Source of the DNA: a virus
Direction: 5' to 3' (one strand)
DNA length: 25,714 bases
IMG/VR virus record: IMGVR_UViG_3300029267_002513
Coordinates: 1-25,714 of that record
This document shows, in pieces, positions 7 through 22,432 of the stretch (the first letter of the stretch is position 1; each line of letters begins with the position of its first letter). The notes below the pieces were generated by a model. The model did no database searches, had not been told where the DNA came from, and was given only the letters and a program-made list of their open reading frames with translations. The translations under genes were made by a program, and so were the position numbers.

Positions 7-62
7 GCGCCGACGAGGCAAAAAACAGCCACAACTAAATTTTGTGTACCCCGCGCGGCAAC
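7..62 (+). repeat. Dispersed intergenic module, copy 1
   Basis: First of three intergenic copies of a bipartite module. GCGCCGA is at 7-13 and GTGTACC at 44-50, 37 bp apart start to start, followed by a CG-rich stretch (CCGCGCGGCAAC). The other copies are at 5811-5864 and 22381-22432, all in the same orientation. Like copy 2 it lies just after a possible stop codon (TAG at 2-4, perhaps of a gene outside the window) and upstream of a + strand gene block. The role is unknown; a protein-binding site for replication or transcription control is an inference. Confidence 0.65.
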
Positions 63-90
63 TAGAATATAAGTATATATATGATCTAGT
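61..90 (+). promoter_or_regulatory. AT-rich leader with inverted repeat upstream of first gene
   Basis: ACTAGA (61-66) and TCTAGT (85-90) form an inverted repeat around an AT-rich core, with ATAT pairs inside it. The ribosome binding site of the first gene (AGGAG, 93-97) follows directly. TATAAG or TATATA within the core could serve as a -10 box, but no good -35 box is seen at the right distance. This may be a leader hairpin or an operator. Confidence 0.25.
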
Positions 91-103
91 CTAGGAGATT
101 TAT

Positions 104-385
104 ATGTTCGATTTCGATAACATTTCTGAAGCTATGAAAGAATTTGAGTTAGGCTACCATAAGGACGCTACAGAGTGGTACAAAAGCCTGACTCGAGAGG
201 AGCAAATGTATGCCTTTTATACTGTTACTAAAAAGATTTATCTCGGAGATATGGTCGAGAATGGATCCTATAGGCATGTTCTATACGATACCTTTGGCTT
301 CGATACTTCTTCGTATGTCATTGGTATGATGTCAAACTATATAGATATTCATAACGCCTTGCAGCCGCCACCCGAGGAGGAGTAA
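104..385 (+). CDS. Hypothetical protein (93 aa)
   Basis: I do not recognise this protein. It is small and acidic, rich in aromatic residues (Tyr, Phe), with no signal peptide or membrane segment and an acidic, proline-rich end (PPPEEE). The start is supported by AGGAG at 93-97, six bases upstream. Its TAA overlaps the ATG of the next gene (TAATG), and the ribosome binding site of that gene lies inside this one, so the two are probably translationally coupled. Its place at the head of a run of small genes suggests an early accessory phage protein. No function can be assigned. Confidence 0.75.
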   Translation: MFDFDNISEAMKEFELGYHKDATEWYKSLTREEQMYAFYTVTKKIYLGDMVENGSYRHVLYDTFGFDTSSYVIGMMSNYIDIHNALQPPPEEE

Positions 386-612
386 TGAACCTAGAAACTA
401 AACTTTTCTATTTTGATGAAGTTTCTTACGCTTTGAATGGCGATGTCTACTTTAGTAACTGTGTTCTTAAAAAGAATTTAGGTCCATATGTAGCGGGGGA
501 GCTTATTCGCCTAACGGTCTTAGCATCTGCTCCTAGAGATACGCTACTTATGTACTATAATGACTATAATGGCAGACCCAGCTACACCCACCAACTAGAG
601 GAATCCCTTTAG
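385..612 (+). CDS. Hypothetical protein (75 aa), paralogue of the 1476-1718 product
   Basis: Function unknown. The middle of the protein (DVYFSN-C-VLKKNLGP then GE) aligns with the product at 1476-1718 (DIYYYDLCTLKRDFGP then GE). Shared positions include Asp, Tyr, Cys, Leu-Lys, Gly-Pro and Gly-Glu, after which both alternate hydrophobic and polar residues like a small beta-rich domain and end in a Tyr-rich stretch. The two probably arose by duplication and now flank the phosphoesterase gene. The start overlaps the preceding stop (TAATG) and has a strong GAGGAGG ribosome binding site. No membrane segment is seen. Confidence 0.75.
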   Translation: MNLETKLFYFDEVSYALNGDVYFSNCVLKKNLGPYVAGELIRLTVLASAPRDTLLMYYNDYNGRPSYTHQLEESL

Positions 613-621
613 GGCACTAAC

Positions 622-1398
622 ATGAACATTAGATACTTTTCCGATCTTCATTTGGAGTTTTGGAAACAGCTACCCCCTCCCGAAGTATTCTTCCCCCTGT
701 ATAAAGACGATGTGTATATTTTTGCTGGTGATATTCATATAGGCACTGCTGCAATATCCTGGTTTGAAACTTTCGCTGATAAAGTAGGACACATTTTCTA
801 CGTTCTTGGGAATCATGAATACTACCATCAAGATTTCAAAACTCTCCCACAACAAGTAAAAACTGCAATAAGGTACTCTAAAGCCGATAATATAAGTTTG
901 CTTGAAGCAGCACACTACCCATCTGTTGTTGTAATTGATGAAGTCGAATTTACCGGGTCTACAGTGTGGACTAACTATGGTGAAGATCCGTATAAGGAGG
1001 CTGCAATATCGGGGCTACTTAGTGATTTTAAGCTAATCAAAAACTATTCCATAGCCCAAGTAAAGGAGCAGTACTACGCAGCAAAAAGCGCTATTATTGA
1101 CTTTCTGAGCGATGGGTCTCGTAGAAAAAAGGTAGTTATTTCACACCATAGCCCCTCTTTTGAGCTGGCATGGAAATCTAAAGCCTATTCTATCGGCCCT
1201 ATTACTGGAGCATTTCACTCCACTATTCTAGACGATGTTTCGGTGCAAATTAGTCCGGCTGCCTGGTTCTATGGCCATACCCATGAAAATCTCACATTAG
1301 ACACTTTGGGCGGTACTAAAGTACTTACCAACCAGTATGGCTATGCTAATTATAATACCGTAGCTGGGTTCGATGAAGACGCTGTATTCCAAATTTAA
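622..1398 (+). CDS. Calcineurin-like metallophosphoesterase
   Basis: A 258-aa two-metal phosphoesterase of the calcineurin-like superfamily. The metal-binding motifs appear in order: D8-x-H10 (SDLHLE), GD37-x-H39, GN64-H65-E, H175-H176 and GH219-T-H221. These motifs fix the fold but not the substrate, which could be a nucleotide, nucleic acid or phosphoprotein. It is distinct from the SbcD-like nuclease at 15791-16735 and has no ATPase partner beside it. It lies between two paralogous small genes in an early cluster. The upstream ribosome binding site is weak (AGGGC about ten bases before the ATG). Confidence 0.85.
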   Translation: MNIRYFSDLHLEFWKQLPPPEVFFPLYKDDVYIFAGDIHIGTAAISWFETFADKVGHIFYVLGNHEYYHQDFKTLPQQVKTAIRYSKADNISLLEAAHYPSVVVIDEVEFTGSTVWTNYGEDPYKEAAISGLLSDFKLIKNYSIAQVKEQYYAAKSAIIDFLSDGSRRKKVVISHHSPSFELAWKSKAYSIGPITGAFHSTILDDVSVQISPAAWFYGHTHENLTLDTLGGTKVLTNQYGYANYNTVAGFDEDAVFQI

Positions 1399-1407
1399 GG
1401 AGGTTAT

Positions 1408-1464
1408 ATGTATTTCTATCCTAGAGTGTACTTGTTCACTTTTCTAATGTTGTTGGGACTATAG
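1408..1464 (+). CDS. Possible 18-aa hydrophobic peptide
   Basis: A tiny open frame reading MYFYPRVYLFTFLMLLGL. It follows AAGGAGG (1397-1403), one of the best ribosome binding sites in the window, which overlaps the TAA of the phosphoesterase gene. No other start codon is well placed to use that site. The peptide is almost wholly hydrophobic and would be long enough to span a membrane. Its size makes chance possible. It could also be a leader that couples translation to the next gene, which starts 11 bases after its stop. Confidence 0.35.
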   Translation: MYFYPRVYLFTFLMLLGL

Positions 1465-1475
1465 GGGAGACTATT

Positions 1476-1718
1476 ATGCTATACTGTGGTTTAGAGAGTT
1501 ATTGGTTTATTTCTGAAATAGCAGAAGTAAATGACACTGCCGACATTTACTATTACGACCTATGTACTCTAAAAAGAGATTTTGGTCCGCTAAAAAGGGG
1601 GGAGCATTTCGTACTTATTAAAATTGATTTAGGTAGAATGAAAATCGTATTTTTTAAGTATGATAACTTCAAACCATATTATAGTGCTAACTTCTGCTTC
1701 AACATTATAGATGAGTAA
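1476..1718 (+). CDS. Hypothetical protein (80 aa), paralogue of the 385-612 product
   Basis: Function unknown. The block D-I-Y-Y-Y-D-L-C-T-L-K-R-D-F-G-P plus the following GE pair aligns with the 75-aa product at 385-612, with a one-residue gap. It is rich in Tyr, Phe and alternating beta-type residues. GGGGAG at 1465-1470 is a good ribosome binding site for this ATG. Its last codons overlap the start of the deaminase gene by eight bases, so it belongs to the same transcript. No membrane segment or known catalytic motif is seen. Confidence 0.75.
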   Translation: MLYCGLESYWFISEIAEVNDTADIYYYDLCTLKRDFGPLKRGEHFVLIKIDLGRMKIVFFKYDNFKPYYSANFCFNIIDE

Positions 1719-2019
1719 ACACTACAATATTACTGCAATTATTTATGATAAGCGCGGCCATATACTGTCAATAGGAAAGAATAGCTATATAAAGACTCAT
1801 CCCCTACAAGCTAAATTTGCCGCTAAAGCGGGAAAGGAAAAAGCAGTATACCTACACGCAGAAATAGCTGCACTAGTTAAACTGCGGGACTGGTCGAAAG
1901 CCCATAAGATTGTAGTAATGCGTTTTAACAAGGACGGCGAGCCAGCAAATGCTAAACCTTGTAGCATTTGCCAAAAAGCCCTTAGAGAAGCGGGCATATC
2001 TAACATAGAGCATACATAA
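1711..2019 (+). CDS. Compact zinc-dependent nucleotide/cytidine deaminase-like protein
   Basis: A 102-aa protein with the zinc signature of the cytidine/deoxycytidylate deaminase superfamily: H49-A-E51 (zinc ligand and catalytic glutamate) and P83-C84-x2-C87 (two cysteine ligands). In phages such enzymes usually convert dCMP to dUMP or act on another base or nucleoside. Together with the dUTPase and reductase at 19832-22334 this would fit deoxynucleotide supply. It is much shorter than typical dCMP deaminases of 150-190 aa and stops soon after the PCxxC motif, so it may be a minimal form with a different substrate. It overlaps the preceding gene by eight bases and the next start by one (TAATG). 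Confidence 0.75.
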   Translation: MSKHYNITAIIYDKRGHILSIGKNSYIKTHPLQAKFAAKAGKEKAVYLHAEIAALVKLRDWSKAHKIVVMRFNKDGEPANAKPCSICQKALREAGISNIEHT

Positions 2020-2195
2020 TGAGCAATGACAAACTTAACTTAATCACCGAATCTATCTTAGCCGGAATTTCAGATATTATTTACAAAAATAGGTACACCA
2101 GGTATCCCTGGATGAACAGCTATGAGGTTGCCGCCTACAATGTAGGGGTTACCATAGCTAAAAAGGCACTAGAACCGGGAGATGCTAAAAAATAA
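2019..2195 (+). CDS. Hypothetical protein (58 aa)
   Basis: A short gene whose ATG shares one base with the deaminase stop (TAATG). It runs to a TAA at 2193-2195, four bases before the -35 box of the next promoter. The product starts MSNDKLNLITESILAG, is mostly predicted helix and ends in a lysine-rich tail. No motif is recognised. The tight overlap and its end exactly at the promoter support it as the last gene of the first early operon. Confidence 0.6.
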   Translation: MSNDKLNLITESILAGISDIIYKNRYTRYPWMNSYEVAAYNVGVTIAKKALEPGDAKK

Positions 2196-2198
2196 GTC

Positions 2199-2227
2199 TT
2201 GACGGCCAAGGTAAATATTGCTATAAT
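2199..2227 (+). promoter_or_regulatory. Sigma70-type promoter P1
   Basis: TTGACG (2199-2204), a 17-bp spacer and TATAAT (2222-2227), so the -10 is perfect and the -35 has five of six matches. Transcription should start near 2234. It lies directly after a stop codon and serves the two-gene unit that ends at the terminator at 2806-2826. The sequences around both boxes resemble promoters P2 and P3. Confidence 0.88.
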
Positions 2228-2256
2228 ATATATACTGAATGAGAGGAGAGACAGTT

Positions 2257-2517
2257 ATGAAGATTATCCCTGCCTATGGCCGTTCCTACAAGACACCTGA
2301 TGCTGCTATCGAAGACTGGAAAGCAGGCAAAGACTTCCGCATCGTTAATGGCCCTTACCTCTCGATTCGAGATGTTAAAGCCATGATGGAAGACCGCAAC
2401 CCTATCGACGAGATCATGTTCGGTTCGGAAGTTATTGCAGAGCTTTTCTGGGCTTATCCTCGCCGCACTGACACTGCAATCTATCTTACCCCAACCGACC
2501 GCGTCATCATTCGCTAG
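2257..2517 (+). CDS. Hypothetical protein (86 aa), likely highly expressed
   Basis: Function unknown; a soluble protein starting MKIIPAYGRSYKTPDAA. An ATG at 2239 is in frame, but 2257 is preferred because GAGGAGAG (2243-2250) sits correctly before it and 2239 would lie only about five bases from the expected transcript start. Codon use differs from most of the window, with more C- and G-ending codons (CGC, TTC, ATC, AAG). Under a near-consensus promoter this suggests strong early expression, though recent acquisition is also possible. No domain is recognised. Confidence 0.75.
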   Translation: MKIIPAYGRSYKTPDAAIEDWKAGKDFRIVNGPYLSIRDVKAMMEDRNPIDEIMFGSEVIAELFWAYPRRTDTAIYLTPTDRVIIR

Positions 2518-2573
2518 GATCATGCTTAGCAGGGATGCTACCTCTTTCCTTAACTTTTAATTAGGAGAATGTT

Positions 2574-2792: not shown

Positions 2793-2805
2793 TCTAAGCA
2801 AGTTG

Positions 2806-2826
2806 CCCCCCTTCGGGGGGATTTTT
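2806..2826 (+). terminator. Rho-independent terminator with UUCG-type loop
   Basis: Six C (2806-2811), TTC, six G (2815-2820), then ATTTTT. The stem can close with a stable C(UUCG)G tetraloop. It lies 13 bases after the 2574-2792 gene and just before the next gene, and closes the P1 unit. Confidence 0.9.
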
Positions 2827-2841
2827 CCGTTTGGGGATTTT

Positions 2842-3324
2842 ATGAATATCTTTGTGCTAGATCGAAATGTAGATGCTTTAGTACAAGCACACGTAGACAA
2901 ACACGTAGTAAAAATGATTCTAGAGCATGCTCAAATGTTGTCTACTGCGGTACGGCTAACTTTACCAGAAGATAAAGTAGGGCCGGCATATAAAGCAAGC
3001 TACCAGAAACACCCATGCACTTTGTGGGTTATGGAGGCATTAGAAAACTGGTTATGGCTAAGAGAAGTTACCATTAGGTTAAACGAAGAGTTTATGTACA
3101 GATTCGATAAAAAAGTCTGGCACAAATCAGCTACAGTAGTAGCTAACCTACCAATTCCTGAGCTAGAAGATAAATCTATGACTCCATTTGCTATGGCGAT
3201 GCCAGACAACATCAAGGAGGATGATCGAGTACAGGCTTACAGAGATTACTACAATACACATAAACGACACTTGTTTAAGTGGACCAAACGCCCAGTGCCA
3301 GAATGGGTTGTGTTAGAAATTTAA
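2842..3324 (+). CDS. Conserved phage protein of unknown function (DKHVVKM / HPC..W family)
   Basis: A 160-aa protein with features I associate with a family common in phages and some bacteria: MNIFVLD at the start, DKHVVKMILEHAQMLSTA near residue 20, a HPCTLWV motif, and a C-terminal MPDN...AYRDYY...KWTKRPVPEW block. Such proteins are usually annotated as hypothetical; a DNA glycosylase-like role has been suggested for some, but I cannot support it from this sequence. The frame extends upstream to 2770, but that start would read through the terminator, so the ATG at 2842 after GGGGA is chosen. No promoter of its own is seen, so expression may depend on read-through. Confidence 0.8.
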   Translation: MNIFVLDRNVDALVQAHVDKHVVKMILEHAQMLSTAVRLTLPEDKVGPAYKASYQKHPCTLWVMEALENWLWLREVTIRLNEEFMYRFDKKVWHKSATVVANLPIPELEDKSMTPFAMAMPDNIKEDDRVQAYRDYYNTHKRHLFKWTKRPVPEWVVLEI

Positions 3325-3326
3325 TC

Positions 3327-3355
3327 TTGACAGGAGAGCTAAACTATCGTATAAT
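3327..3355 (+). promoter_or_regulatory. Sigma70-type promoter P2 (consensus)
   Basis: TTGACA (3327-3332), a 17-bp spacer and TATAAT (3350-3355), a full match to the sigma70 consensus. The start point should be near 3362. It lies two bases after the preceding stop codon and leads into the 3380-5808 gene string. Confidence 0.92.
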
Positions 3356-3379
3356 ATACTCTGAAATGGGAGAAAAGTT

Positions 3380-3532
3380 ATGCCATGTATGAAATGCAGT
3401 AACGGTAAATGGAAGTACGGAAAACGAGGTAAGTGCGTATTTGATACTCTTGAGGCATGTAAAGCAGCTGAAGCTGCTATTCATGCACGAGAGAACAAGA
3501 AACCCAAGAAAAGTAAAACAGGAGATAAATAA
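3380..3532 (+). CDS. Small Cys4 protein (50 aa), zinc-ribbon-like
   Basis: A 50-residue protein with cysteines at 3, 6, 19 and 27 (MPCMKCSNGKWKYGKRGKC, then a CKAAEAA helix) and a very basic tail (KKPKKSKTGDK). The spacing C-x2-C-x12-C-x7-C suggests a small metal-binding knuckle. Similar MPCxxCxNGK mini-proteins occur in other phages without an assigned function. GGGAG at 3368-3372 is a good ribosome binding site and P2 lies just upstream. The stop overlaps the next ATG by one base. A nucleic-acid- or polymerase-binding role is a guess based only on the Cys pattern and charge. Confidence 0.75.
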   Translation: MPCMKCSNGKWKYGKRGKCVFDTLEACKAAEAAIHARENKKPKKSKTGDK

Positions 3533-3885
3533 TGTCTGAGTGGTCCGACGAGCTAAAAGAAAAAGTTGTTAAGATGTACGAGGAGAGCAACCCTACTCCA
3601 GAAAATACCGTTGAAATCTGTGCGGATATTGCAGAGCAGGTTGATAAAACACCTAATGGTGTTCGTATTATTCTCATGCACGCAGGGGTTTGGGTAAAGA
3701 AAGCCCAGGCTAAGAAAGATGGTGCATCTTCAGATGATAAGCCTAAGCGAGTATCTAAACAAGATGCTATCGATGCTCTAAAGGAGCTTCTAGAAGAGCG
3801 TAACGCTGAGGTAGACTCAGCTATTCTGGATAAGCTGACGGGAAAAGCAGCAGTATATTTCACTAATGTAATCAACTCAATCTAA
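3532..3885 (+). CDS. Single-repeat HTH/SANT-like DNA-binding protein (117 aa)
   Basis: Residues 3-57 form a helix-turn-helix-like unit starting with Trp-Ser-Asp-Glu and containing DIAEQVDKTPNGVRIILMH. That segment closely matches residues 206-224 of the 251-aa product at 6652-7407 (DIAETVGKTLRGVKAMLTH), so the two are related. A charged linker and a C-terminal helical stretch follow. Putative role: an early DNA-binding or regulatory protein. The start overlaps the preceding stop, and AGGAG lies ten bases upstream. Codon use is less AT-rich than the ligase genes, as for other probably abundant proteins here. Confidence 0.7.
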   Translation: MSEWSDELKEKVVKMYEESNPTPENTVEICADIAEQVDKTPNGVRIILMHAGVWVKKAQAKKDGASSDDKPKRVSKQDAIDALKELLEERNAEVDSAILDKLTGKAAVYFTNVINSI

Positions 3886-3895: not shown

Positions 3896-4576
3896 ATGGC
3901 TTCTCTTAGAAAGAAACAAGGCGAAAAATTAGATGCAGCTTCTATCCAAAAAGTTATAGAGCTGCTAAATAGCGAGCAACCTATCTCTAAGAAGGAAGCC
4001 TGTGAAATCTTAAACATTTCGTACAATACTACTCGCCTCAATAAGATAATCAACGATCATACTGAAAGAGAGGAGTATCGTGCGAAGCGCAGAAAGGAAC
4101 TAGCTAAACATCCGGTTAGTGAAAGAGAGAAGGCAGAGATCATAACATATTATCTCCACTCTTTTTCTCTTTCAGCCGTGTCAGAGTCTACTTTTAGAAG
4201 CACAGAGGTAATAAAGCGCGTTTTAAAGGAATTCTCAATTCCCCTAAAGGATAGTAGCTACACATACCATAACCCTCCACTACTAGAGGAAACCTCTTAT
4301 GCCGTAGATTACAAACCGGGAGACTTAGTATTTTCAGCTAAGTATTACAGCATAGCGTATATTTCTAAACTAATAAAAACTGACGAAATTACCTCCTATT
4401 ACCGTATTTATATTATAGGGGTAAATGAAAGATACGCAATACAACCAGCTTATGAACTAGCTGACCTTAGACCCTTACAGGAGATGGGAGTACAACCTAA
4501 AACAATGGATAAAAATGACATTGTGTACGCCATCAATGAAGCCCTAATTAAAGCAAGAAAAGGTAAGTCGAAATGA
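3896..4576 (+). CDS. HTH DNA-binding protein (226 aa), putative regulator
   Basis: Two helix-turn-helix-like segments can be seen. The first is about residues 15-60 (SIQKVIELL...SKKEACEILNISYNTTRLNKII). The second is about residues 73-115 (VSEREKAEIITYY, then SAVSESTFRSTEVIKRVLKEF), which resembles HTH units of resolvases and transposase-type regulators. From about 130 to 195 the protein is beta-rich (PGDLVFSAKYYSIAYISKL...YRIYIIGVNERYAIQP), like a small barrel. This layout fits a sequence-specific DNA-binding regulator of phage genes. The true target is unknown; the dispersed modules described here are candidates by context only. GAGG precedes the ATG, and the stop overlaps the next start (ATGA). 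Confidence 0.65.
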   Translation: MASLRKKQGEKLDAASIQKVIELLNSEQPISKKEACEILNISYNTTRLNKIINDHTEREEYRAKRRKELAKHPVSEREKAEIITYYLHSFSLSAVSESTFRSTEVIKRVLKEFSIPLKDSSYTYHNPPLLEETSYAVDYKPGDLVFSAKYYSIAYISKLIKTDEITSYYRIYIIGVNERYAIQPAYELADLRPLQEMGVQPKTMDKNDIVYAINEALIKARKGKSK

Positions 4577-4839: not shown

Positions 4840-5808
4840 ATGGAAAGTATTGAAGCCTTGCTAGATAGAGCCTCCGAAGCATACTATAAAGGAGAGCAAC
4901 AGATTCTATCAGATCAGGAGTTTGATTACCTTGCTGAACTAATTGGATACAATAAAGTAGGTGCAACTATTGGCAATATGCCACATTATAGCCGTATGTA
5001 TTCATTAAGGAAGTATGTGCAGGGCGATTCTCTACCGGAACTAGAAGATCCTATCATAACCCCTAAACTGGATGGATCTGCAGTAAGCCTACTATATGTA
5101 AGCTCTGGAAATAGTACTGTGCAGCTGAGTACTGCACTAACTAGAGGCAACGGACTTCTGGGAGAAAATATAACAGATAAACTCTCTACCTTAGTACCTC
5201 TCCAGCTTAGGTGTTCTGCATCTATACTGTTTATCACTGGAGAAGTTGTTACTGATATAGGAGAGCACTCAAAAAATAGTAGGAACTACGTTTCGGGAGC
5301 ACTTCACCTAAAGAATATGGATGAGTTCAAAACTCGTAGATTGAGTTTTGTAGCTTATGGAGTAGTATATGCTGGGTGGGAGAAATCAACCTATCTAGAG
5401 GATATGGATTTCCTAGATAAGCTGGGATTCAGTACTGTAGTAACGGTAGATCATTCTAACATTCTAAAAGATGGGAAAGTCTTTCGAGAAAACAGTAACC
5501 GTCTATACGTTTCTAGAGGCTTCACAGATCGCTACCCTAGAGCAGCCTATGCTGTAAAGAATACAGAGGATTTTGAAGTAAAGGAAACCACCCTAAGAGA
5601 GGTAAAATGGCAAGTTGGAAAAAATGGAACCATAACGCCAGTAGGGTATTTTGACGAGATAGTTCTAGATGGAGCTAAAGTCTCAAAAGCCACCCTACAT
5701 AATATAGGCTTTATTGAGGAGATGGGAATTGAACTTAACTGTACTATACTGGTTACGAGATCGGGAGGTATCATACCAAAAGTCTTAGCGGTATCAGAAA
5801 ATTTTTAA
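4840..5808 (+). CDS. ligA: NAD+-dependent DNA ligase, N-terminal half (adenylation plus OB fold)
   Basis: This 322-aa protein is the catalytic half of an NAD+-dependent DNA ligase. A short domain Ia, which binds NMN (YYKGEQQILSDQEFDYL, about 15-31), precedes the adenylation domain with its active-site lysine in K76-L-D78-G. Further on are a GE-V-V strand, the VKWQVGKNGTITPV block and the OB-fold SKATLHN...VTRSGGIIPKV, matching RAGDVIPQV in cellular enzymes. It then stops, where cellular ligases continue into the zinc finger. The missing zinc-finger, HhH and BRCT parts are encoded separately at 5913-6671, as in T5. Domain Ia is shorter than in E. coli LigA. GGGG about eight bases upstream is a moderate ribosome binding site. 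Confidence 0.93.
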   Translation: MESIEALLDRASEAYYKGEQQILSDQEFDYLAELIGYNKVGATIGNMPHYSRMYSLRKYVQGDSLPELEDPIITPKLDGSAVSLLYVSSGNSTVQLSTALTRGNGLLGENITDKLSTLVPLQLRCSASILFITGEVVTDIGEHSKNSRNYVSGALHLKNMDEFKTRRLSFVAYGVVYAGWEKSTYLEDMDFLDKLGFSTVVTVDHSNILKDGKVFRENSNRLYVSRGFTDRYPRAAYAVKNTEDFEVKETTLREVKWQVGKNGTITPVGYFDEIVLDGAKVSKATLHNIGFIEEMGIELNCTILVTRSGGIIPKVLAVSENF

Positions 5809-5810: not shown

Positions 5811-5864
5811 AGCGCCGAGCTAGGCATTTTGCCTAGCAAAAAATTCTGTATACCGCGCGTAACC
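5811..5864 (+). repeat. Dispersed intergenic module, copy 2, with internal hairpin
   Basis: GCGCCGA is at 5812-5818 and GTATACC at 5848-5854 (36 bp apart), followed by GCGCGTAACC. Between them GCTAGGC (5819-5825) and GCCTAGC (5831-5837) form a perfect seven-pair hairpin with loop ATTTT, followed by six A. The module fills the gap between the ligase halves and lies 17 bp before promoter P3. The hairpin is absent from copies 1 and 3. Confidence 0.7.
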
Positions 5865-5881
5865 CTGTACAAAAATAATTC

Positions 5882-5910
5882 TTGACATTCATGTCTGTTT
5901 TTGGTATAAT
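5882..5910 (+). promoter_or_regulatory. Sigma70-type promoter P3 (consensus), abutting the next ATG
   Basis: TTGACA (5882-5887), a 17-bp spacer and TATAAT (5905-5910), a full consensus match. Only two bases separate the -10 box from the ATG at 5913, so a normal start point (5916-5918) would fall inside or after that codon. It would serve the 6652-7407 gene and the replication genes beyond. Confidence 0.9.
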
Positions 5911-5912
5911 AT

Positions 5913-6671
5913 ATGAATACTGAAATTTTACCACCTACACACTGCCCGGCATGTAACGGCAAAATTCGTAGAGTTAATAACCAGCTTTTTTGTGTTAATC
6001 CGGGTTGTTTGGGTAGTATTAGTAAAAAGCTAGAGCACTATTGTAAGACCTTAAAGATTAAGGGGTTAGGTCCGAAAACTATCGAAAAGCTAGATCTACA
6101 GTCGATATTCGACATATATGAGTTAGACGAGTCTATTTTCGATATCTTAGGCGAGAAAACAGGCTCTAAAATTCTGCTAGAAGTAGAAAATTCTTATTCT
6201 AGTACGTTTACGACCTTTCTTGCGGGCTTAGGCATCCCTTTGATTGGGAAAAGTGCTACTAGCAAACTATCATCTACTGTATCTTGCATAGATGATATTA
6301 CAGAAAAAAGCTGCAAAGCTGCTGGGCTAGGGAATGTAGCTACAGGAAATCTATTGGAATGGCTAGAGGAAAATGATACCCAGCAGCTACGATCTCTTGC
6401 CAGTAGGTTCAGTAGTGAACCGACAAGTGTTAAACCGACAAATTTACCTGCAGTTTGTATTTCAGGTAAACTTAAATCATTCAAAACCAAACAAGAAGCA
6501 AAATTAGCTATTGAAGAGTTGGGATTCAAAGTTACAGATACAGTAACTAAGGATACTCAATACTTATTAACTGAACAGGCTAACGAGACTTCTAAAGTGA
6601 AAAAAGCCCGAGAAAAGGGCATTAAAATTGTAAATTACGAGGAACTAATAAATGAGCAACCAACTACCTAA
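5913..6671 (+). CDS. ligB: NAD+-dependent DNA ligase, C-terminal half (zinc finger, HhH, BRCT)
   Basis: This 252-aa protein supplies the rest of the ligase: a four-Cys zinc finger (C11-x2-C14-x12-C27-x4-C32, beginning PTHCPAC as in cellular enzymes), helix-hairpin-helix repeats (about 45-165, with IKGLGPKTIEKL and AGLGIPLIGKS) and a BRCT domain in the last 75 residues (VCISGKLKSF...ELGFKVTDTVTKDTQYLL). It should pair with the 4840-5808 product to seal nicks. The ATG at 5913 has no ribosome binding site, a TAA lies immediately upstream in frame (5907-5909), and it sits at the promoter P3 -10 box. Translation may therefore rely on read-through transcripts or an unusual start. Confidence 0.9.
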   Translation: MNTEILPPTHCPACNGKIRRVNNQLFCVNPGCLGSISKKLEHYCKTLKIKGLGPKTIEKLDLQSIFDIYELDESIFDILGEKTGSKILLEVENSYSSTFTTFLAGLGIPLIGKSATSKLSSTVSCIDDITEKSCKAAGLGNVATGNLLEWLEENDTQQLRSLASRFSSEPTSVKPTNLPAVCISGKLKSFKTKQEAKLAIEELGFKVTDTVTKDTQYLLTEQANETSKVKKAREKGIKIVNYEELINEQPTT

Positions 6672-7407
6672 GTGGGATGATGAACGTACACAAACTCTTG
6701 AAAATCTAGTAATGGGCGAAAATCCAGTATCTGCTGCTACCGTTCACAAAGCAGCTGATGAGCTGTCAACAACTTCTAAGTCTATTGCAGCAAAGCTACG
6801 CCGATTAGGCTACGAAGTAGCCAGTCTGGCGAAAACTGCTACAAAGTCCTATACTGATGAAGAGGAGCAAGAGCTTCGTGACTACGTAGAAGCAAACCCA
6901 AAGGCATATACTTATGGTGAAATTGCAGAAGCCCTTTTCAATGGTGAACGTTCTCCAAAGCAAATCCAAGGTAAGCTACTTAGCATGGAACTAACCAGGC
7001 TAGTTAAACCTTCTCCCAAGAAAGAAACTCAGAAAACTTATTCTGAAGAGGAGGAGCAGCGCATTATCACTATGATGGAGCAAAACGCCTTCCTAGAGGA
7101 TATTGCAGAAGCACTTGGTCGTCCCATTAACTCAATTCGTGGTAAGGCTCTCAGCCTAGCAAACGAGTATGACAATCTAACTATTCCAAAGCTACGTGAG
7201 CGTAAACAGCCCGCAGCAAAGGTCGATCCCTTTGATAACCTAGATGTTGCTGAGATGACTGTTGAAGATATTGCAGAGACTGTTGGCAAGACTCTTCGTG
7301 GTGTAAAAGCTATGCTAACTCACCGTGCGCTAAAAGCCAAGAACTATGATGGCGCTAAGCGCGCACAGAAAAACAAAGAAAAGAGAGAAAGCGCGGATAA
7401 CGAGTAA
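6652..7407 (+). CDS. Multi-repeat HTH/SANT-like DNA-binding protein (251 aa)
   Basis: The sequence breaks into related helical units: R1 about 8-55 (starts WDDERTQTLENLV), R2 about 67-115 (YTDEEEQELRDYV), R3 about 130-172 (YSEEEEQRIITMM, EDIAEALGRPINSIRGKA) and a shorter R4 about 200-228 (VEDIAETVGKTLRGVKAML). The tail is basic. Each unit looks like a Myb/SANT- or HTH-type DNA-binding domain, and R4 closely matches the 117-aa product at 3532-3885. It is probably an abundant dsDNA-binding protein or transcription factor; T5 has an early DNA-binding protein (D5) in the same part of its map, but homology is not established here. GAGGA precedes the ATG, which overlaps the ligase gene by 20 bases. 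Confidence 0.72.
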   Translation: MSNQLPKWDDERTQTLENLVMGENPVSAATVHKAADELSTTSKSIAAKLRRLGYEVASLAKTATKSYTDEEEQELRDYVEANPKAYTYGEIAEALFNGERSPKQIQGKLLSMELTRLVKPSPKKETQKTYSEEEEQRIITMMEQNAFLEDIAEALGRPINSIRGKALSLANEYDNLTIPKLRERKQPAAKVDPFDNLDVAEMTVEDIAETVGKTLRGVKAMLTHRALKAKNYDGAKRAQKNKEKRESADNE

Positions 7408-9648: not shown

Positions 9649-11887
9649 TAGAATCGCAGTTGTAGATAAATATGATACTGGATTTAATTATTCAAAAATA
9701 TTTGACTTTGAATTTTCCATCTATTTCTTAGTAGACAAGCAAACTTCAAGTAAGGTGTCTAAAAAACACGTTACCCTAGATCTAGCTATTTTAGATAGCT
9801 ATGATTATGTCATATTGGTTGGAGCCGACGTCTGTAGAGTTACTGGTCAGCTTAGTAGTGGAGTATCTTCTTTGCAGGGGTGTTTGATTAACAACAAATA
9901 TATTCCACTAACTAGCCCCTTTAGCTGTAAGATTAAACCTGAGAATAAGCCCGAATTCGATCTTGCAGTATCTAAAATTCACGATATTATATCCAATAAA
10001 CCTACTAGCGTAGATACTAATAAAGTTATAATAGAGGAAGAGCAGGAAGCCTACGACTATCTTTCAAACGTTTTAGAAAAAGCTAAAAAGGGAGACATTA
10101 CTTATACGGCGATGGATACAGAGACGTCGGCCCTTTACCCAAGGGATGGTTACATAGTGTGTATGTCTCTTTCGTATAAGCGGTATGAGGGGGTGTGCAT
10201 TGTGTCTGACGCAGTATCTGATAGAGTATCAGAGCTGCTTCAAAGTATTATTGATAACACAAAATATACAGTTTTTCATAATGCTAAGTTTGATATCGCA
10301 ATGATGGAGTATCATTATGGTCTAAAATTTGGAAAATTCCATGACACCATGCTAATGCATTATATTTTAGATGAAAGGAGGGGAACACACGGACTAAAAG
10401 ATCTTGCAGCAAAGCTAACACCATTTGGTGACTATGATTCAGGTTTAGATGCCTGGAGAATTGACTACTGTAGAAAGAACAAATTGAAGAGGGAAGACTT
10501 TAATTACTCAATGTTCCCTATTGAGGTACTAGGACCTTATGCCTGTATGGATACAATAGCAACGCTAGAATTATTCGAGCAATTTAAGGATAAGATTGTA
10601 GATAGCCCCATACTGTGGGCTTATCAAAATCTGTTGATTGCGGGCACTAAGCTATTTATAGAAATCCAAAATAATGGTGTACCTTTTAGTAGGGAGGCCC
10701 TTGAAAAAGCCCAAAATACTCTTAACAGGCAGATAAATCGCTATAAGAAGTATATATACAGTACTGATGCAGTTAAAAAGTTTGAAGAGCTGGCTAATGT
10801 AAAGCTGAACTTAAATTCAGTAGTACAATTACGGCAAGTTTTATTTAATGTACTTATGCTCAGTCCTACAGGCATTATGACGGATAAAGGTGAGCATTCT
10901 CTAAATGAGGAGGCACTTACTATACTGGCGGAACAGCACAGCCTGCCTAAAGCTATCCTAAAAGCTAGGAAACTGCTCAAAATAAAAAATACATATATAG
11001 ATAAGGTACTTACTTCTCTAGACAGGGATTCCAGGCTAAGAACTAATTTCAATCTTCATACTACTACTTCTGGTAGGGCCTCCTCTTCTGGAAAGTTAAA
11101 TATGCAGCAGTTGCCACGGGATAATAAAACTGTTAAAAAGTGTATTGTCGCAGGAAAAGGTAAAAAGATTGTATCAGTAGACCTTAGCACAGCAGAAATG
11201 TATGTAGTATCTGTCCTATCTAAAGATAAGAACCTACAAAAAGTTTTTAAGGATTTGAGGTCCGGTTCTGGTGCAGACTTTCATAGTGCTATTGCACATA
11301 TGGTTTTTGACCTGCCATGCGAGCCTAAAGAAGTAAAGGCTCAGTATCCAAAACTACGGCAAGCCGCTAAGGCAGTATCGTTCGGAATATTGTATGGTGC
11401 AGGACCGCAGAAAGTGGCCGACTCCGCGGAGGTATCTCTGGATCGGGCCAGGGAAGTAATTAAGAGCTATTATGATAAGTTTCATAAACTAAGCGACTGG
11501 CTTAAGAAGGAAAAGGAAAATATCTCAAACCTGGGGTATACATATTCTATTTTCTCTAGGAAACGCAGGTTACCGAATGTTAAGTCTCCAGATAAGCAGA
11601 TAGCTTCGCATGAAGTTAGAAGTGGAATTAACTTTCTTGTTCAGAGTGTAGCTTCAGATATAAACCTACTAGCGGCCGTAGATTCACAAAAAGATGTGCT
11701 TACTAAAGGTTTAGATGCTAAAATATTTGGACTTGTGCACGACTCTATTCTAGCAGAAGTTAGCGAAAAGGATATGGATGCTTACTGCGATATTTTGCGT
11801 AAAAATATCGAAAAGGATAGAGGCTGTAATATCTCTGGCTGCCCTATCCTATATGACATAGAAATTGGTGATACCTATGCTTTTTAG
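9641..11887 (+). CDS. Family A DNA polymerase with 3'-5' exonuclease
   Basis: A 748-aa replicative polymerase. The N-terminal 130 residues are not recognised. The proofreading domain has D159-T-E161, N214-AKF-D218 and Y300-x3-D304. The polymerase domain has TTSGRASSSGKLNMQQLP (474-491), motif A D514-L-S-T-A-E519-M-Y, motif B R573-x3-K577-x3-F581-x3-Y585-G and motif C H700-D701-S702. The catalytic aspartates (D514, D701), the motif A glutamate and the O-helix Arg/Lys/Phe/Tyr are kept. Two usual residues differ: the Arg of the ELR motif is Tyr521 and the Glu after HD is Ser702. There is no 5' nuclease domain; that activity is encoded at 19000-19839. GAGGAAA precedes the ATG. Confidence 0.95.
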   Translation: MGSRIAVVDKYDTGFNYSKIFDFEFSIYFLVDKQTSSKVSKKHVTLDLAILDSYDYVILVGADVCRVTGQLSSGVSSLQGCLINNKYIPLTSPFSCKIKPENKPEFDLAVSKIHDIISNKPTSVDTNKVIIEEEQEAYDYLSNVLEKAKKGDITYTAMDTETSALYPRDGYIVCMSLSYKRYEGVCIVSDAVSDRVSELLQSIIDNTKYTVFHNAKFDIAMMEYHYGLKFGKFHDTMLMHYILDERRGTHGLKDLAAKLTPFGDYDSGLDAWRIDYCRKNKLKREDFNYSMFPIEVLGPYACMDTIATLELFEQFKDKIVDSPILWAYQNLLIAGTKLFIEIQNNGVPFSREALEKAQNTLNRQINRYKKYIYSTDAVKKFEELANVKLNLNSVVQLRQVLFNVLMLSPTGIMTDKGEHSLNEEALTILAEQHSLPKAILKARKLLKIKNTYIDKVLTSLDRDSRLRTNFNLHTTTSGRASSSGKLNMQQLPRDNKTVKKCIVAGKGKKIVSVDLSTAEMYVVSVLSKDKNLQKVFKDLRSGSGADFHSAIAHMVFDLPCEPKEVKAQYPKLRQAAKAVSFGILYGAGPQKVADSAEVSLDRAREVIKSYYDKFHKLSDWLKKEKENISNLGYTYSIFSRKRRLPNVKSPDKQIASHEVRSGINFLVQSVASDINLLAAVDSQKDVLTKGLDAKIFGLVHDSILAEVSEKDMDAYCDILRKNIEKDRGCNISGCPILYDIEIGDTYAF

Positions 11888-12365
11888 TAATGTAGAATTT
11901 CCTATATTTACGATTCCAGCTAAAGTAGGGGAGATAAAAGAGTCGGGTAATATTATCTATTTTAGGGACAAAATTATTGATAATAGAAACCTATCTGGTA
12001 AGGATCTAGCAAGTAGAAGGCTGAAAATACCTAGAGGCGATAGATACCCGCTCAGACAGGCTTTGTTAAATATCCGTGCAGTAGTAAAATCAGGTACTAA
12101 ATATTTTATAGACTCTAAAGGGGGCTTATTTAGGTACCAAAAAACTAAATTCTATAATGTCATATATAGAAAGGTAATCTCGATCCTAAACACCAATGAA
12201 TTGATTATTTTTGTGGAAGGTATAGATACATATATAACTCTTTCACCTTTGCAATATAACTATATAACGGTTAACCACTACTTGGGGCTAATCGAATTAA
12301 ATCCAGGATTTTTGATATATGAAGTATCGGAAACACGTAAAAAAGATACCAGAAAAAAGTTATGA
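11877..12365 (+). CDS. Hypothetical protein between polymerase and helicase (162 aa)
   Basis: Function unknown. The product starts MLFSNVEFPIFTIPAKVGEI and looks beta-rich, with a basic end (RKKDTRKKL). The frame is open from a TTG at 11865, but the ATG at 11877, with GGTG six bases before it, is the likelier start. It overlaps the polymerase gene by 11 bases and the next ATG by four (ATGA). The tight packing between polymerase and helicase suggests a replication accessory protein, but no motif proves it. Confidence 0.75.
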   Translation: MLFSNVEFPIFTIPAKVGEIKESGNIIYFRDKIIDNRNLSGKDLASRRLKIPRGDRYPLRQALLNIRAVVKSGTKYFIDSKGGLFRYQKTKFYNVIYRKVISILNTNELIIFVEGIDTYITLSPLQYNYITVNHYLGLIELNPGFLIYEVSETRKKDTRKKL

Positions 12366-14734
12366 AAAAAGCAGTTATTTCAAACAGAATTTATTTAAGC
12401 TCGAATGAGCATATCTTGAAGTATCTAAAGGAACATTTGTACTATGTAATACCTTCTAAACATCCCAGGGCACTACCCGAAATTATATATGATGTTATTA
12501 AAATAAACTCTGATGTAGTGTCCATCCCTGTAGGTAGGACAGACCTAATACCTTCGAACTACGATATAGTTGATAAGCGAACATTAGCTCCAGTGGCTTT
12601 CCCTGATTTTACTTTTACTTTAAGGGATTCTCAGCAGGAAGTTTATGATATGGTAGACGATAACTACCTTATAAATGCTCAGCCTGGTTGGGGTAAAACT
12701 TTTACAGCTTTAGCTATAGCGCATAAGTTAGGCCAAAAAACACTAGTTATTGTCCACACTATATCGCTAAGGGACCAGTGGGCTAGTGAGATAAAAAAGG
12801 TATTTGGGTTTTCTCCTGATGTTATAGGAAGCGGTAAATTCGGTACTTCAACCCCTATTGTAGTATCCAATATCCAAACCCTTAGAAAGAGAGCTCTAGA
12901 AATTAGGAAAGAGTTTGGAACGGTTATAGTTGATGAATGTTTGGATTATGAGACTAGAATTAAAACTAAAGAATATGGAATTAAAAAATTAGGTGCTATA
13001 GTAAACCAAAAACTAGATTGTCATGTACAGTCTTGGAACGGTACTTCTTGGGAGTATAATAAAGTACTAAACTACTATAAAAACCCTCAAGATCTTTTTA
13101 TACATTTTAAGTTTGATAATTCTAGTACGCTAAAGGCTACTGAAAATCATAAAATTTATCAATATAAAAATGGTAAAATAGTAGAAACTCTTGCGGGAAA
13201 TCTACTAGAAGGAGATTATGTAGTTTGTAAGAAGGATAGCAAAACCACTAATTTATTGATAGGACCAGTACTTGGATTTATTCTAGGAGATGGATCACTA
13301 GCTAAAACTAAAAATAGTGTTAGGATTAAGGTAACTCATGGGCAGGATCAAAAAGAATATCTCGAGTATAAAAAGCAGTTATTAAGTAACATATGTTCTG
13401 ACGCCTCTATTGTACAGGGCAAATCAGGATTTCAGCCAAATAATCATATTTATTCTGTATCCACTCTTAGTTTCTTAGATGAAGAGGATATTCATGCAAA
13501 AGTATATGCTGGAAATAGTAGAAAAACATCTTTACCAAAATGCTTGGCCGATAAGTTAAGTATATTTGATTGGGCTATCATGTATCAAGATGATGGTTCT
13601 ATAAACAAGCATACCATAAATTTTCATCTGTACTTTGATGAGGAAGGATCTAATAATTTAATATATTCTTTAGCAAAGTTATTTGGAGTACACGCACTGT
13701 TACGCCCATATGAGAAAAACGGAAAAATTCTTAATAAGTTAGCGCTGTCCACTACTGATAGTGAAATTTTCCTACAAAAAATTAAAAACTATATACATCC
13801 AAGTATGTACTATAAGTTTGGTACTTTTGACTCTATAAAAGATACTGCTAAATTTGAAAATGATGTTAATATACCTCCAATATACTTTAAAAGCTATTCA
13901 GCTACTAAAATAGTAGAGATAGGCGTAGCAGAAGCTACTGGAGGCTATAGGTATAATATAGAAGTTGATAAAGTTCATAATTATACAGCCAATAATAAGC
14001 TGGTATCTAATTGTCATCACCTGCCCGCTTCTTCATTTAAGGAAACTGTAGACTTATTTTCTGCAAGATATAAAATAGGACTGTCCGCTACACTAGGTAG
14101 AACTGATAGAAAGGAAATGCTAATATATGATTATATCCATAAAACTAATCTAGTTAGACCACAAATCGAGAATAAGCTAACTCCGGAAATTTTAGTGCTT
14201 AACACAGATATAGAGTTTCCTTACGCAGGTAATTGGAGTACTGCTATTAATGAACTCACTTCAAATCCCGAATATATAGAAATGATAGTAGGGATTACAG
14301 AAACGCTAAAAGAAGCTGGACACAATGTCTTAGTATTAAATGATAGGGTAACTTTCTTGGAGATATGCTACGAGCTTGTACCTGACTCAATGCTCATGGT
14401 TGGTAGCTCTAAGTTTGGTAATGAAGTGATTTTAGATCGTGAATCTGCTCACGAACGGGTAGGTGACGATGTAAAAGTAATTTTTGGTACTACATCTATA
14501 TATAAGGAAGGCATAGACATACCACAACTATCTTGTATAGTTTTAACAACACCCACTAAAAATAAATTCTTACTAGAGCAGATTATAGGTAGAGCTACTA
14601 GACCTTACCCAGGGAAACTAAATCCTCTAATAGTTGATATAGCTCTTCAAGGAGCTATCGCAAAAAAACACTTGACATCCAGGCTCGATTATTATATAAT
14701 AGATAATAAATATAAAGTAAGGCATGAAAATTAA
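12362..14734 (+). CDS. Superfamily 2 DNA helicase (D10/UvsW-like) interrupted by an intein
   Basis: A 790-aa precursor; the mature helicase would be about 432 aa. Residues 1-192 carry the Q-like region (FTLRDSQQEV) and Walker A AQPGWGKT (K112). Motif II is cut in two: D191-E192, then the intein (193-550), then C551-H-H. After it come motif III GLSATL (573-578), TSIYKEGIDIPQ (motif V, about 711-722) and QIIGRATRP (motif VI, 740-748). These are the motors of ResIII/UvsW-type dsDNA translocases used in recombination and fork rescue. The position after the polymerase matches T5 D10. Without splicing the DEAH-type box cannot form, so the intein must act for the helicase to work. It starts by an ATGA overlap and has no clear ribosome binding site. 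Confidence 0.92.
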   Translation: MKKAVISNRIYLSSNEHILKYLKEHLYYVIPSKHPRALPEIIYDVIKINSDVVSIPVGRTDLIPSNYDIVDKRTLAPVAFPDFTFTLRDSQQEVYDMVDDNYLINAQPGWGKTFTALAIAHKLGQKTLVIVHTISLRDQWASEIKKVFGFSPDVIGSGKFGTSTPIVVSNIQTLRKRALEIRKEFGTVIVDECLDYETRIKTKEYGIKKLGAIVNQKLDCHVQSWNGTSWEYNKVLNYYKNPQDLFIHFKFDNSSTLKATENHKIYQYKNGKIVETLAGNLLEGDYVVCKKDSKTTNLLIGPVLGFILGDGSLAKTKNSVRIKVTHGQDQKEYLEYKKQLLSNICSDASIVQGKSGFQPNNHIYSVSTLSFLDEEDIHAKVYAGNSRKTSLPKCLADKLSIFDWAIMYQDDGSINKHTINFHLYFDEEGSNNLIYSLAKLFGVHALLRPYEKNGKILNKLALSTTDSEIFLQKIKNYIHPSMYYKFGTFDSIKDTAKFENDVNIPPIYFKSYSATKIVEIGVAEATGGYRYNIEVDKVHNYTANNKLVSNCHHLPASSFKETVDLFSARYKIGLSATLGRTDRKEMLIYDYIHKTNLVRPQIENKLTPEILVLNTDIEFPYAGNWSTAINELTSNPEYIEMIVGITETLKEAGHNVLVLNDRVTFLEICYELVPDSMLMVGSSKFGNEVILDRESAHERVGDDVKVIFGTTSIYKEGIDIPQLSCIVLTTPTKNKFLLEQIIGRATRPYPGKLNPLIVDIALQGAIAKKHLTSRLDYYIIDNKYKVRHEN
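12938..14011 (+). mobile_element. LAGLIDADG intein in the helicase DEAH box
   Basis: A 358-aa in-frame protein-splicing element (residues 193-550 of the 12362-14734 product). It starts at Cys1 (CLDYETRI, block A), has a TENHKIY block B, and ends VDKVHNYTANNKLVSN (blocks F and G) before the +1 Cys of CHHLP. Two LAGLIDADG motifs, GFILGDGS (about 305-312) and WAIMYQDDGS (about 404-413), with acidic residues, mark a homing endonuclease. The insertion lies between Glu and Cys of the Walker B box, a conserved site favoured by inteins. The penultimate residue is Ser (S549) rather than the usual His. By eye it is more AT-rich than the flanking helicase, consistent with separate origin. Confidence 0.93.
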
Positions 14735-19839: not shown

Positions 19840-20290
19840 TGTATCAAACCCCCCGCTCCCTATACATATAGTGTATACTAGTCCTAAAATTAAGGAACTG
19901 GGTTTAGCTAGAGCCTATCCTAGTTCTGCTGGTTTAGATTTACGAACTACTGAAGAAATAAATATCAGCCCTGGAAGGATTCAAAAAGTTGATACAGGAA
20001 TAAAGCTGGCTATTCCTACAGGATTTGCGGGGTTTATATTTCCCCGTAGCGGAATAGCTTCTAAAACAGGAATAGTATTAGCTAACACAGTTGGTATTAT
20101 TGATCCAGAATATAGGGGGCCAATAATTTGTGCATTGAAGAATACGAGCCAGATGCCAAGGTATTTATCGAGATACTCTAAAGTAGCGCAGCTGGTTATT
20201 ATGCCAATAGAATATACTAATCTAGTAGAGGTAGAAGAACTACCAGAGAGTTTAAGGGGGTCAAATGGCTTCGGCTCTACAGGAGTATAA
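19832..20290 (+). CDS. dut: dUTPase (trimeric type)
   Basis: A 152-aa dUTP pyrophosphatase that turns dUTP into dUMP, keeping uracil out of phage DNA and feeding dTMP synthesis. All five family motifs are present: SAGLDLR (32-38), PRSG (71-74), the nucleotide-binding GIVLANTVGIIDPEYRG (80-96), KVAQLVI (117-123) and the C-terminal RGSNGFGSTG (142-151). The length is normal. GAGGT precedes the start, which lies inside the end of the flap nuclease gene. Confidence 0.96.
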   Translation: MFDVSNPPLPIHIVYTSPKIKELGLARAYPSSAGLDLRTTEEINISPGRIQKVDTGIKLAIPTGFAGFIFPRSGIASKTGIVLANTVGIIDPEYRGPIICALKNTSQMPRYLSRYSKVAQLVIMPIEYTNLVEVEELPESLRGSNGFGSTGV

Positions 20291-20291
20291 T

Positions 20292-22334
20292 ATGCATCAA
20301 CTAAGTGTACGAGCAGAAGCGGTAACTAGAAGAACCTACTGTAGACCAGTGAGTGAGACGGAAATTGAGACATGGGAAGAGGTTGTAGATAGGGTAATCG
20401 ACCACCAGCGTTGGCTGTGGGAGCGGGCGCTTACAGCGCAAGTTCTCACGAGTATGCCTCTTCACGATATTAGCGAAGGACTTAAAGAGTGGGTCTATCT
20501 TAGTGAGGAAGAAAATAGTGAATTAGAAGAACTGCGCCAACTAATGCTGCAACGTAAGGCTCTCCCTTCTGGCAGAACCTTGTGGCTAGGCGGAACAGAA
20601 ATTAGTAAGCGTAGGGAATCTAGCATGTTTAATTGTGCCCACGTAATACTAGAAACTGTTTATGATATGGTGGATGCCTTCTGGCTGCTACTTCAAGGTT
20701 GTGGTGTAGGTGTAACCCCTATTACCGGTACATTAACAGGATTTAGAAGTGTAATTCCTGAGATAGAAATTATTCCTTCCACTAAAACTTTGGAAGATGG
20801 AAAAGGTAGAGAAAATAACGAAGAATCTTTTATTGATGGAGAGTGGTATATATCTATTGGAGATAGCGCAGAAGCCTGGGCAAAAACACTAGGTAAAATT
20901 TTAGCTAATAAATATAAAGCTAAAAAACTAGTTATTGATTTTTCAGAGATTAGAGCATCAGGTATTCGCTTAAAAGGATATGGCTGGATCTCTAGCGGCT
21001 ATCTTCCATATGCAAAAGCGCTAAAAGGTATATTTGATATTATGAATAAAAGGGCGGGTAGTCTGCTCACTAAACTTAATATCATTGAAATCCATAACTA
21101 CATTGGTACAGTGCTAAGTTCCCGCCGAAGTGCGGAAATCTGCTTGATGCCTTATGGAGATCCAGAGTGGAGGGACTTCGCAGCATTTAAAGCTAACTGC
21201 TACGAAGAAGGGTATAAACACAGACAGATGTCAAATAATTCCCTTGTATTTTATTCTAAACCTTCGAGATACCAGCTTACTGAATTATTTGATATTATGA
21301 TCCAAAATGGTGGTAGCGAACCAGGATTCTATAACGGTGAAGCCGCCTTAAGCAGGGCACCTTATTTTAAGGGAACTAATCCTTGTGGAGAGATCTTGCT
21401 TGGTAACAAGTCCTTCTGTAATCTTACTGAGTTGGACATTGGTAAGTTTAAAGGCGATAATGCAGGACTACATAGAGCAATGACAGTTATTTCTAGAGCA
21501 AACTATAGACAAACTGTTGTTGATCTAAGAGATGAGATTTTACAGGAATCCTGGCATATTAACAATGAGTTTCTAAGACTTTGCGGTGTCGGTATTACAG
21601 GTATTACCTCTCGTCCTGATATTACGGAGTATGACTGGAAGAATCTAAGATACTCAGCTGTAGTAGGTGCTAGAAGTATGGCCAAGGAGCTAGGCTTACA
21701 ATTCCCGAAAAACGTGACAACTGTCAAGCCTTCAGGTACACTTAGCAAAATCATGGATACTAGCGAAGGAATACATAACCCTGATGGTAGGTACCTATTT
21801 AACTGGATTAACTTTGGTAACGATGACCCACTCATTCCAAAACTGCAGGCTGCCAACTATAGGACCATGCCTAATCCGGCGGATAGCGCAGGGACGCTTG
21901 TCTGCCTACCTGTAAAGTTTGAGGGGAAGTTTGAGGCTACACCTGCTAAGAGAAAAGATGGTACGGTGGAGATTATTGAAGTAAATGCCGAAACAGCAAT
22001 CGAGCAGCTAGAAAGATATAAAAAGGTACAGAGTAACTATGTAGATCATAATGTATCTATCACAGTTAAGTACGTACCTGAGGAGAAGGACGACATTGTA
22101 AATTGGATTCTAGATAATTGGGATATTATGGTTGGAGTAAGTTTCCTTATTAAACCAGATCCCACTTTATCCGCTAAAGACCTTGGGTATAATTATCTAC
22201 CCCAAGAATACGTTACAGAAAAGACGTATGAAGAGTATGTAAATACGCTAGTAGAGGTAGATTATACGAATACAGACTCTATCTTAGAGCTTGAAGATGA
22301 GGGATGCGCTACTGGAGCATGTCCGATTAAGTAA
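20292..22334 (+). CDS. nrdJ: Class II (adenosylcobalamin-dependent) ribonucleotide reductase, monomeric type
   Basis: A 680-aa reductase related to the monomeric ribonucleoside-triphosphate reductase of Lactobacillus. Thiyl-radical Cys365 and partners lie in N363-P-C365-G-E367; the active-site disulfide pair is C115 (MFNC) and C376 (SFCNLTE). The C-terminal shuttle pair is C672-x4-C677 (CATGAC). It makes dNTPs from NTPs with vitamin B12 as radical source, in air or not, so the host must supply or import cobalamin. No thioredoxin gene is in the window. The frame is open from 20265, but AGGAG (20281-20285) supports the ATG at 20292. It is followed by a strong terminator. Confidence 0.93.
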   Translation: MHQLSVRAEAVTRRTYCRPVSETEIETWEEVVDRVIDHQRWLWERALTAQVLTSMPLHDISEGLKEWVYLSEEENSELEELRQLMLQRKALPSGRTLWLGGTEISKRRESSMFNCAHVILETVYDMVDAFWLLLQGCGVGVTPITGTLTGFRSVIPEIEIIPSTKTLEDGKGRENNEESFIDGEWYISIGDSAEAWAKTLGKILANKYKAKKLVIDFSEIRASGIRLKGYGWISSGYLPYAKALKGIFDIMNKRAGSLLTKLNIIEIHNYIGTVLSSRRSAEICLMPYGDPEWRDFAAFKANCYEEGYKHRQMSNNSLVFYSKPSRYQLTELFDIMIQNGGSEPGFYNGEAALSRAPYFKGTNPCGEILLGNKSFCNLTELDIGKFKGDNAGLHRAMTVISRANYRQTVVDLRDEILQESWHINNEFLRLCGVGITGITSRPDITEYDWKNLRYSAVVGARSMAKELGLQFPKNVTTVKPSGTLSKIMDTSEGIHNPDGRYLFNWINFGNDDPLIPKLQAANYRTMPNPADSAGTLVCLPVKFEGKFEATPAKRKDGTVEIIEVNAETAIEQLERYKKVQSNYVDHNVSITVKYVPEEKDDIVNWILDNWDIMVGVSFLIKPDPTLSAKDLGYNYLPQEYVTEKTYEEYVNTLVEVDYTNTDSILELEDEGCATGACPIK

Positions 22335-22375
22335 AAAAGAAGGGGTACCAGCTTTTGCCGGTACCCCTTTAATTT
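22335..22375 (+). terminator. Probably bidirectional terminator of the converging operons
   Basis: GGGGTACC (22342-22349) and GGTACCCC (22360-22367) form an eight-pair stem with a ten-base loop. TTTAATTTT follows on the + strand, and on the - strand the stem is followed by TTCTTTTTT. It can end both the early + operon and the late - operon. Confidence 0.9.
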
Positions 22376-22380
22376 TGGTC

Positions 22381-22432
22381 AGCGCCGAAGACCATTTCCA
22401 TTTTCGTACAATTTCGTGTACCGCGTGTTACC
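22381..22432 (+). repeat. Dispersed intergenic module, copy 3
   Basis: GCGCCGA is at 22382-22388 and GTGTACC at 22416-22422 (34 bp apart), followed by GCGTGTTACC. It lies in the junction between converging operons, 38 bases before the tandem repeat array. Inside it TTTTCGTACA and ATTTCGTGTACC look like two diverged copies of one half-site. Confidence 0.7.

Follow-up and report, generated by a model that had tools for sequence, protein, structure and literature searches.

A phage distantly related to T5 has three copies of a short two-part module in its early region, all in one orientation; what does this module do? The DNA analysed here (referred to as the window) comprises all 25,714 nucleotides of IMG/VR record IMGVR_UViG_3300029267_002513. 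In the first-pass annotation of this DNA, the heptamer pairs GCGCCGA/GTGTACC, GCGCCGA/GTATACC, and GCGCCGA/GTGTACC had been placed on the + strand at positions 7/44, 5812/5848, and 22382/22416, respectively, and each was found exactly there, with spacers of 30, 29, and 27 nt between the heptamers. The CG-rich tails described for the copies were also present, as was the hairpin in copy 2 (GCTAGGCATTTTGCCTAGC), and the reading of such conserved ends around a variable middle of near-constant length as a two-site element for DNA recognition was borne out; the element is probably phage-specific. The statement that all copies lie between genes holds for copies 2 and 3; copy 1, at the contig start, precedes the first complete gene. 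The minus strand, opposite ligA, gives the more natural reading of the module, CGSGGTAYAC followed by TCG|GCGC, with 36-39 nt from GTA to GCGC (Table 1; the vertical bar denotes a nick position, predicted in the case of the window).

The significance of the repetition was assessed in several ways. The two-heptamer pattern had three matches in the window, compared with 0.01 expected in shuffled sequences, a figure that is post hoc. When the whole window was searched for any bipartite triple, the module was not singled out (~67 bits, versus shuffle maxima of 64 (median) to 71); the value of ~67 bits is a hand calculation, and the seeds of this search could not pick up the module directly. De novo searching for word pairs has too much noise to establish the module alone. 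A fair test is provided by intergenic DNA only (865 bases, 3.4% of the window), in which the module was the best triple, scoring 81.5 bits, whereas none of 200 shuffles exceeded 58.1, a result far beyond chance.

From protein comparisons and gene order, the 25.7-kb record was assigned to a distantly T5-like phage and to its early region. The window contains both the split NAD ligase and the order ligA-ligB-D5-D6-pri-pol-D10-D12-D13-D14-D15-dut by which a T5-like (Demerecviridae-related) phage was recognized, and from ligA to dut the order is that of T5. Its genes are, in sequence, D2/D3-like genes, ligA, ligB, a D5-like regulator, DnaB helicase, primase, family A polymerase, a D10-like helicase, single-strand binding protein, D12, D13, a gene in the D14 position that resembles RusA-like resolvases, a flap nuclease in the D15 position, dUTPase, and a class II ribonucleotide reductase, followed by a terminator and converging late genes, of which the window includes only ~3 kb. 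The LigA of the window and those of T5-like phages shared 41-48% identity, and all of these proteins have a common end point; given this shared end point, and given that the ligase is also split in T5, copy 2 interrupts no gene even though it lies between the two ligase genes. No close DNA relative of the window was found among sequenced phages, and in a D12 tree the window had a long branch, and no sister to it was more than weakly supported. Single-protein searches with LigA and pol gave few or no relatives; alignment-based searches succeeded.

Several other features of the gene map were noted. The D10-like helicase gene (12362-14734) contains an in-frame insertion, probably an intein, that matches the LAGLIDADG homing endonuclease family PHROG 11023. 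The ribonucleotide reductase (20265-22334) is of the class II (B12-type) and stands directly 3' of dut, where T5 has none. Four strong, alike sigma-70 promoters (CTTGACN...TATAATA) are located at 2188-2231, 3316-3359, 5871-5914, and 14661-14704. At 22471-22554, between the converging early and late blocks, a 17-bp sequence (ATAGTACAAAACCGACA) is directly repeated five times in tandem, the copies being 98% alike; these repeats are iteron-like and may be an origin or a protein array.

Table 1. Positions of the module copies and of the genes and signals that bear on them.
Feature	Position	Strand	Description
Module copy 1	7..60	-	GCCGCGCGGGGTACAC - spacer - TCG|GCGC; 39 nt GTA to GCGC; predicted nick between minus-strand bases 11 and 10
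Module copy 2	5812..5864	-	GGTTACGCGCGGTATAC - spacer with hairpin - TCG|GCGC; 38 nt GTA to GCGC; predicted nick 5816/5815
Module copy 3	22382..22432	-	GGTAACACGCGGTACAC - spacer - TCG|GCGC; 36 nt GTA to GCGC; predicted nick 22386/22385
D3-like gene	3532-3885		T5-like gene
ligA-like, NAD-dependent DNA ligase subunit A	4840..5808	+	adenylation and OB domains; reference strand
ligB-like, NAD-dependent DNA ligase subunit B	5913..6671	+	BRCT domain; same split in T5
D5-like regulator	6652-7407		T5-like gene
Strong intrinsic terminator	22340..22369	.	between early (+) and late (-) gene blocks, directly before copy 3

That T5 DNA carries strand-specific nicks has been known since the 1960s. In the T5 record AY543070, the annotated major single-chain interruptions fall at R|GCGC and on the anti-ligA strand; the major nick heptamer is R|GCGCRGG, with sciA and sciB as the associated genes (AY543070 annotation; PMC3517423). 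The reported map location of sciA and sciB is the late region (PMC3517423). The heptamer is also present un-nicked, on the nick-free strand, from which it was argued that further sequence must be involved (PMC3517423, 2012). T5 mutants without nicks are viable, and the purpose of the nicks has not been established (PMC3517423, PMC11780129). Another sequence, GCGCGGTG, served only as a lead to the T5 nick site and was set aside for R|GCGCRGG, as given in the tf paper and in the T5 record.

Inspection of the T5 nicks revealed an upstream block, CRYGTAAY (CACRYGTAAYAC), on the same strand and 34-36 nt before the R|GCGC cut. GTAAY was found at this distance upstream of all five T5 major nicks (5/5) and of none of the other RGCGCRGG words in T5 (0/6; Fisher p 0.002, or 0.029 with the terminal repeats counted once). 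When T5 was scanned with a profile built by leaving one genome out, its five nicks scored 30-39.5, and the next site scored 15.4. No description of the upstream block was found in the literature reached, which covered few subscription journals and none of the T5 genome papers; as the second half of the T5 nick site, the block appears new to that literature. Two T5 nicks (AY543070, L046) are notably placed: the one at 9748 falls in the injection-stop region of the annotation, and the one at 39746 adjoins an efficient bidirectional terminator, a setting like that of copy 3.

The pairing was then sought across the family, using nine full Demerecviridae genomes and defining a pair as GTAAY plus RGCGCRG. 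At 33-40 nt, 29 pairs were on the anti-ligA strand versus 3 on the other strand, and the pairs were strand-specific in 8 of the 9 genomes; no comparable peak was seen in other spacing bins. With an exact-pattern version, all sites (27/27) were on the anti-ligA strand regardless of record orientation. Information at these sites was concentrated in the two blocks and low in between. The profile scan found no T5-type sites in Pectobacterium phage DU_PP_V, which indicates drift or loss of the signal in certain lineages.

Environmental relatives were represented by ~1.85 Mb of T5-like contigs. When all 1024 5-mers were compared, in an unbiased test, for enrichment ahead of RGCGC on the anti-ligA strand of these contigs, GTAAC came top, and GTAAY...TCGGCGC was on the anti-ligA strand in 7/7 occurrences. 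A GTAAY...TTCG|GCGC pair sits within the D10 helicase gene of these relatives, and 45 distinct sequences with identical amino acids at the site were compared. Among sequences with an intact TGCGCCGA, 23/23 kept the third base of GTT, a left-block codon, versus 11/22 of those with a broken right block (Fisher p 7e-5, a value that is optimistic because the contigs share ancestry). Moreover, third-base entropy in the intact group was zero at two left-block codons, compared with ~1.2-1.8 bits at most spacer codons. Such a pattern in the bipartite D10 element is characteristic of selection on the DNA and not on the protein. Taken together with the T5 and family results, the T5 nick site is a two-part site, strand-specific across the family, and both of its halves are constrained as DNA in environmental relatives. 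The D10 element is located at ~10783 in L180 and at homologous positions in L174, L202, L317, L319, L329, L349, L354, L383, and others.

When the window modules were set against T5-type sites, all three copies had a purine and then GCGC at the predicted cut (G|GCGC, 3/3), had TC preceding GGCGC (3/3), and were located on the strand opposite ligA, as are the annotated nicks of T5 (3/3). The resulting core, TCG|GCGC, is the one found in environmental relatives. The left block stands 36, 38, or 39 nt from GCGC in the window, compared with 34-36 nt in T5 and ~33-39 nt in the family, and the early gene map is shared. Positions are intergenic or genic, and one T5 site is next to a bidirectional terminator; copy 3 likewise follows a terminator, at the junction of the converging gene blocks. 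There are also differences. The left block of the window is GGTAYAC with a CG-rich start, and the agreement of CGSGGTAYAC with CRYGTAAY is a weak resemblance (joint p ~0.02 for the three copies against the T5 profile); with the full T5-family profile, the copies were not ranked first in the window. TCG before the predicted cut is likewise unlike T5. RGG does not follow GCGC, the window having G|GCGCTGG, G|GCGCTGA, and G|GCGCACC; this mismatch departs from the T5 consensus R|GCGCRGG but not necessarily from the wider class of sites, because environmental relatives, which have A plus A/C/T after GCGC, depart from it too. The copies are denser (three in 22 kb, versus four distinct sites in ~110 kb of T5), and their nicks are predicted, whereas those of T5 have been mapped. 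On balance, strand, spacing, and core suggest that the three modules are probably diverged T5-type single-chain-interruption (nick) sites, in which the left block has drifted from the T5 form.

A scan of the window and of related phages with a two-block pattern had been recommended in the first-pass annotation. The window gave its three matches, and exact-pattern scans of IMG/VR gave 40 and 79, of which only one contig, L224, was homologous to window proteins. This related virus contig (D12 50% identical) contains TCACGCGGTACAC - 35 nt - TCG|GCGCTGA within the D12 coding sequence, on the same strand, with a left block identical to that of the window, and matches copy 3 block for block. The match is weak support, since the motif was absent from the homologous D12 stretch of contig L389, and it may be explained by chance or codon constraint. 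Absence of the module at matching places in close relatives had been put forward as counter-evidence; such a comparison is not cleanly applicable here, because T5-like nick sites shift between loci and may sit within genes.

A different explanation is that the module is an operator through which a phage DNA-binding protein (the D5-like regulator, the D3-like protein, or the 3896-4576 protein) controls transcription at unit borders. Two copies are indeed directly upstream of early genes, copy 2 immediately before a good sigma-70 promoter; copy 3 is at a unit border, and the D5-like regulator is encoded in the window. However, only copy 2 directly precedes a clear promoter, no promoter is near copy 3, and the promoters at ~2196, 3325, and 14661, which are alike to that of copy 2, are without the module. 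The corresponding pair in relatives also occurs within genes. The 3896-4576 protein, to which the first-pass annotation had assigned an HTH and the binding of the module for replication or transcription control, has no Pfam HTH match; it instead matches PHROG 3611, a phage family labelled helicase, and the T5 gene at the corresponding place is D2. With strand, spacing, and core fitting nick sites, an operator is unlikely. An origin element for replication or recombination, tied to the five 17-bp iterons past copy 3, could draw on the clear array that begins ~40 bp after that copy and on the wealth of replication genes in the window. Yet copies 1 and 2 have no iterons, and the T5-type geometry would be left unexplained, so that we consider this account very improbable. 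Both functions had been raised in the first-pass annotation, and in both cases strand, spacing, and core point to T5 nick sites instead.

We give still less credence to a cis-acting RNA element of the + strand (processing, antitermination, or a regulatory leader), for although every copy is in a transcribed or leader region and copy 2 has its hairpin, that hairpin is confined to one copy, there was no Rfam match, and folding was no better than in shuffles on either strand (z +0.16 to -1.48). Chance, or a functionless short repeat, would be compatible with the whole-window search, but the result of the intergenic search and the agreement with T5 in strand, spacing, and core make it equally hard to credit.

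If the modules are T5-type nick sites, a late phage nicking system would cut one defined strand, opposite ligA, before the GCGC of the core TCG|GCGC. The upstream block (CGSGGTAYAC in the window, CACRYGTAAYAC in T5), ~33-39 nt or roughly three to four helical turns away, would probably dock or position the enzyme. The window variant would then be a member of this class and presumably nicked, and a two-contact nickase, for which the sciA/sciB products are candidates, would read it. More tentatively, and with rather less than an even chance of being correct, we propose as a general model that T5-type nicking is the work of a two-contact enzyme whose docking block is three to four helical turns from the cut, that this block and the cut sequence co-evolve in each phage lineage, and that selection keeps the sites even in essential genes. 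Were this true, the nicks, dispensable in the laboratory, would have an important function in nature; they might be programmed points at which recombination or replication enters, say, or act in packaging or in the evasion of host defence. Because the upstream block separates nicked from un-nicked T5 heptamers exactly, the recognition signal is directly testable; the strand-specific, synonymously constrained block likewise makes natural selection on the nicks directly testable. The two-part signature could also be used to find nicked genomes in sequence data.

Nick signals of other phages share some of these properties. Those of the Pseudomonas tf/LUZ24 group (TACT|RTGMC) and of the phiKMV group (CGACxxxxxCCTA|CTCCGG) are also strand-specific, repeated, short DNA signals, the purpose of which has not been established (PMC3517423, PMC11780129). 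Both differ from the window modules in being of unrelated sequence and in other phage groups, and the tf/LUZ24 signal is a single short block. A further resemblance was seen in the environmental T5-like genomes G003 (L299-L304) and G004 (L305-L309), which have ~6-9 alike promoters of the form TTGACA-N17-TAAAAT-CGGCGC near one genome end. Here too CGGCGC occurs on the same strand in repeated copies. These repeats were considered as a bridge to the modules and rejected; they proved to be sigma-70 promoters whose start region is CGGCGC, whereas the window modules have no -35/-10 there, and they represent a look-alike, not a relative. The arrays probably consist of pre-early promoters in which an element of the start region is conserved.
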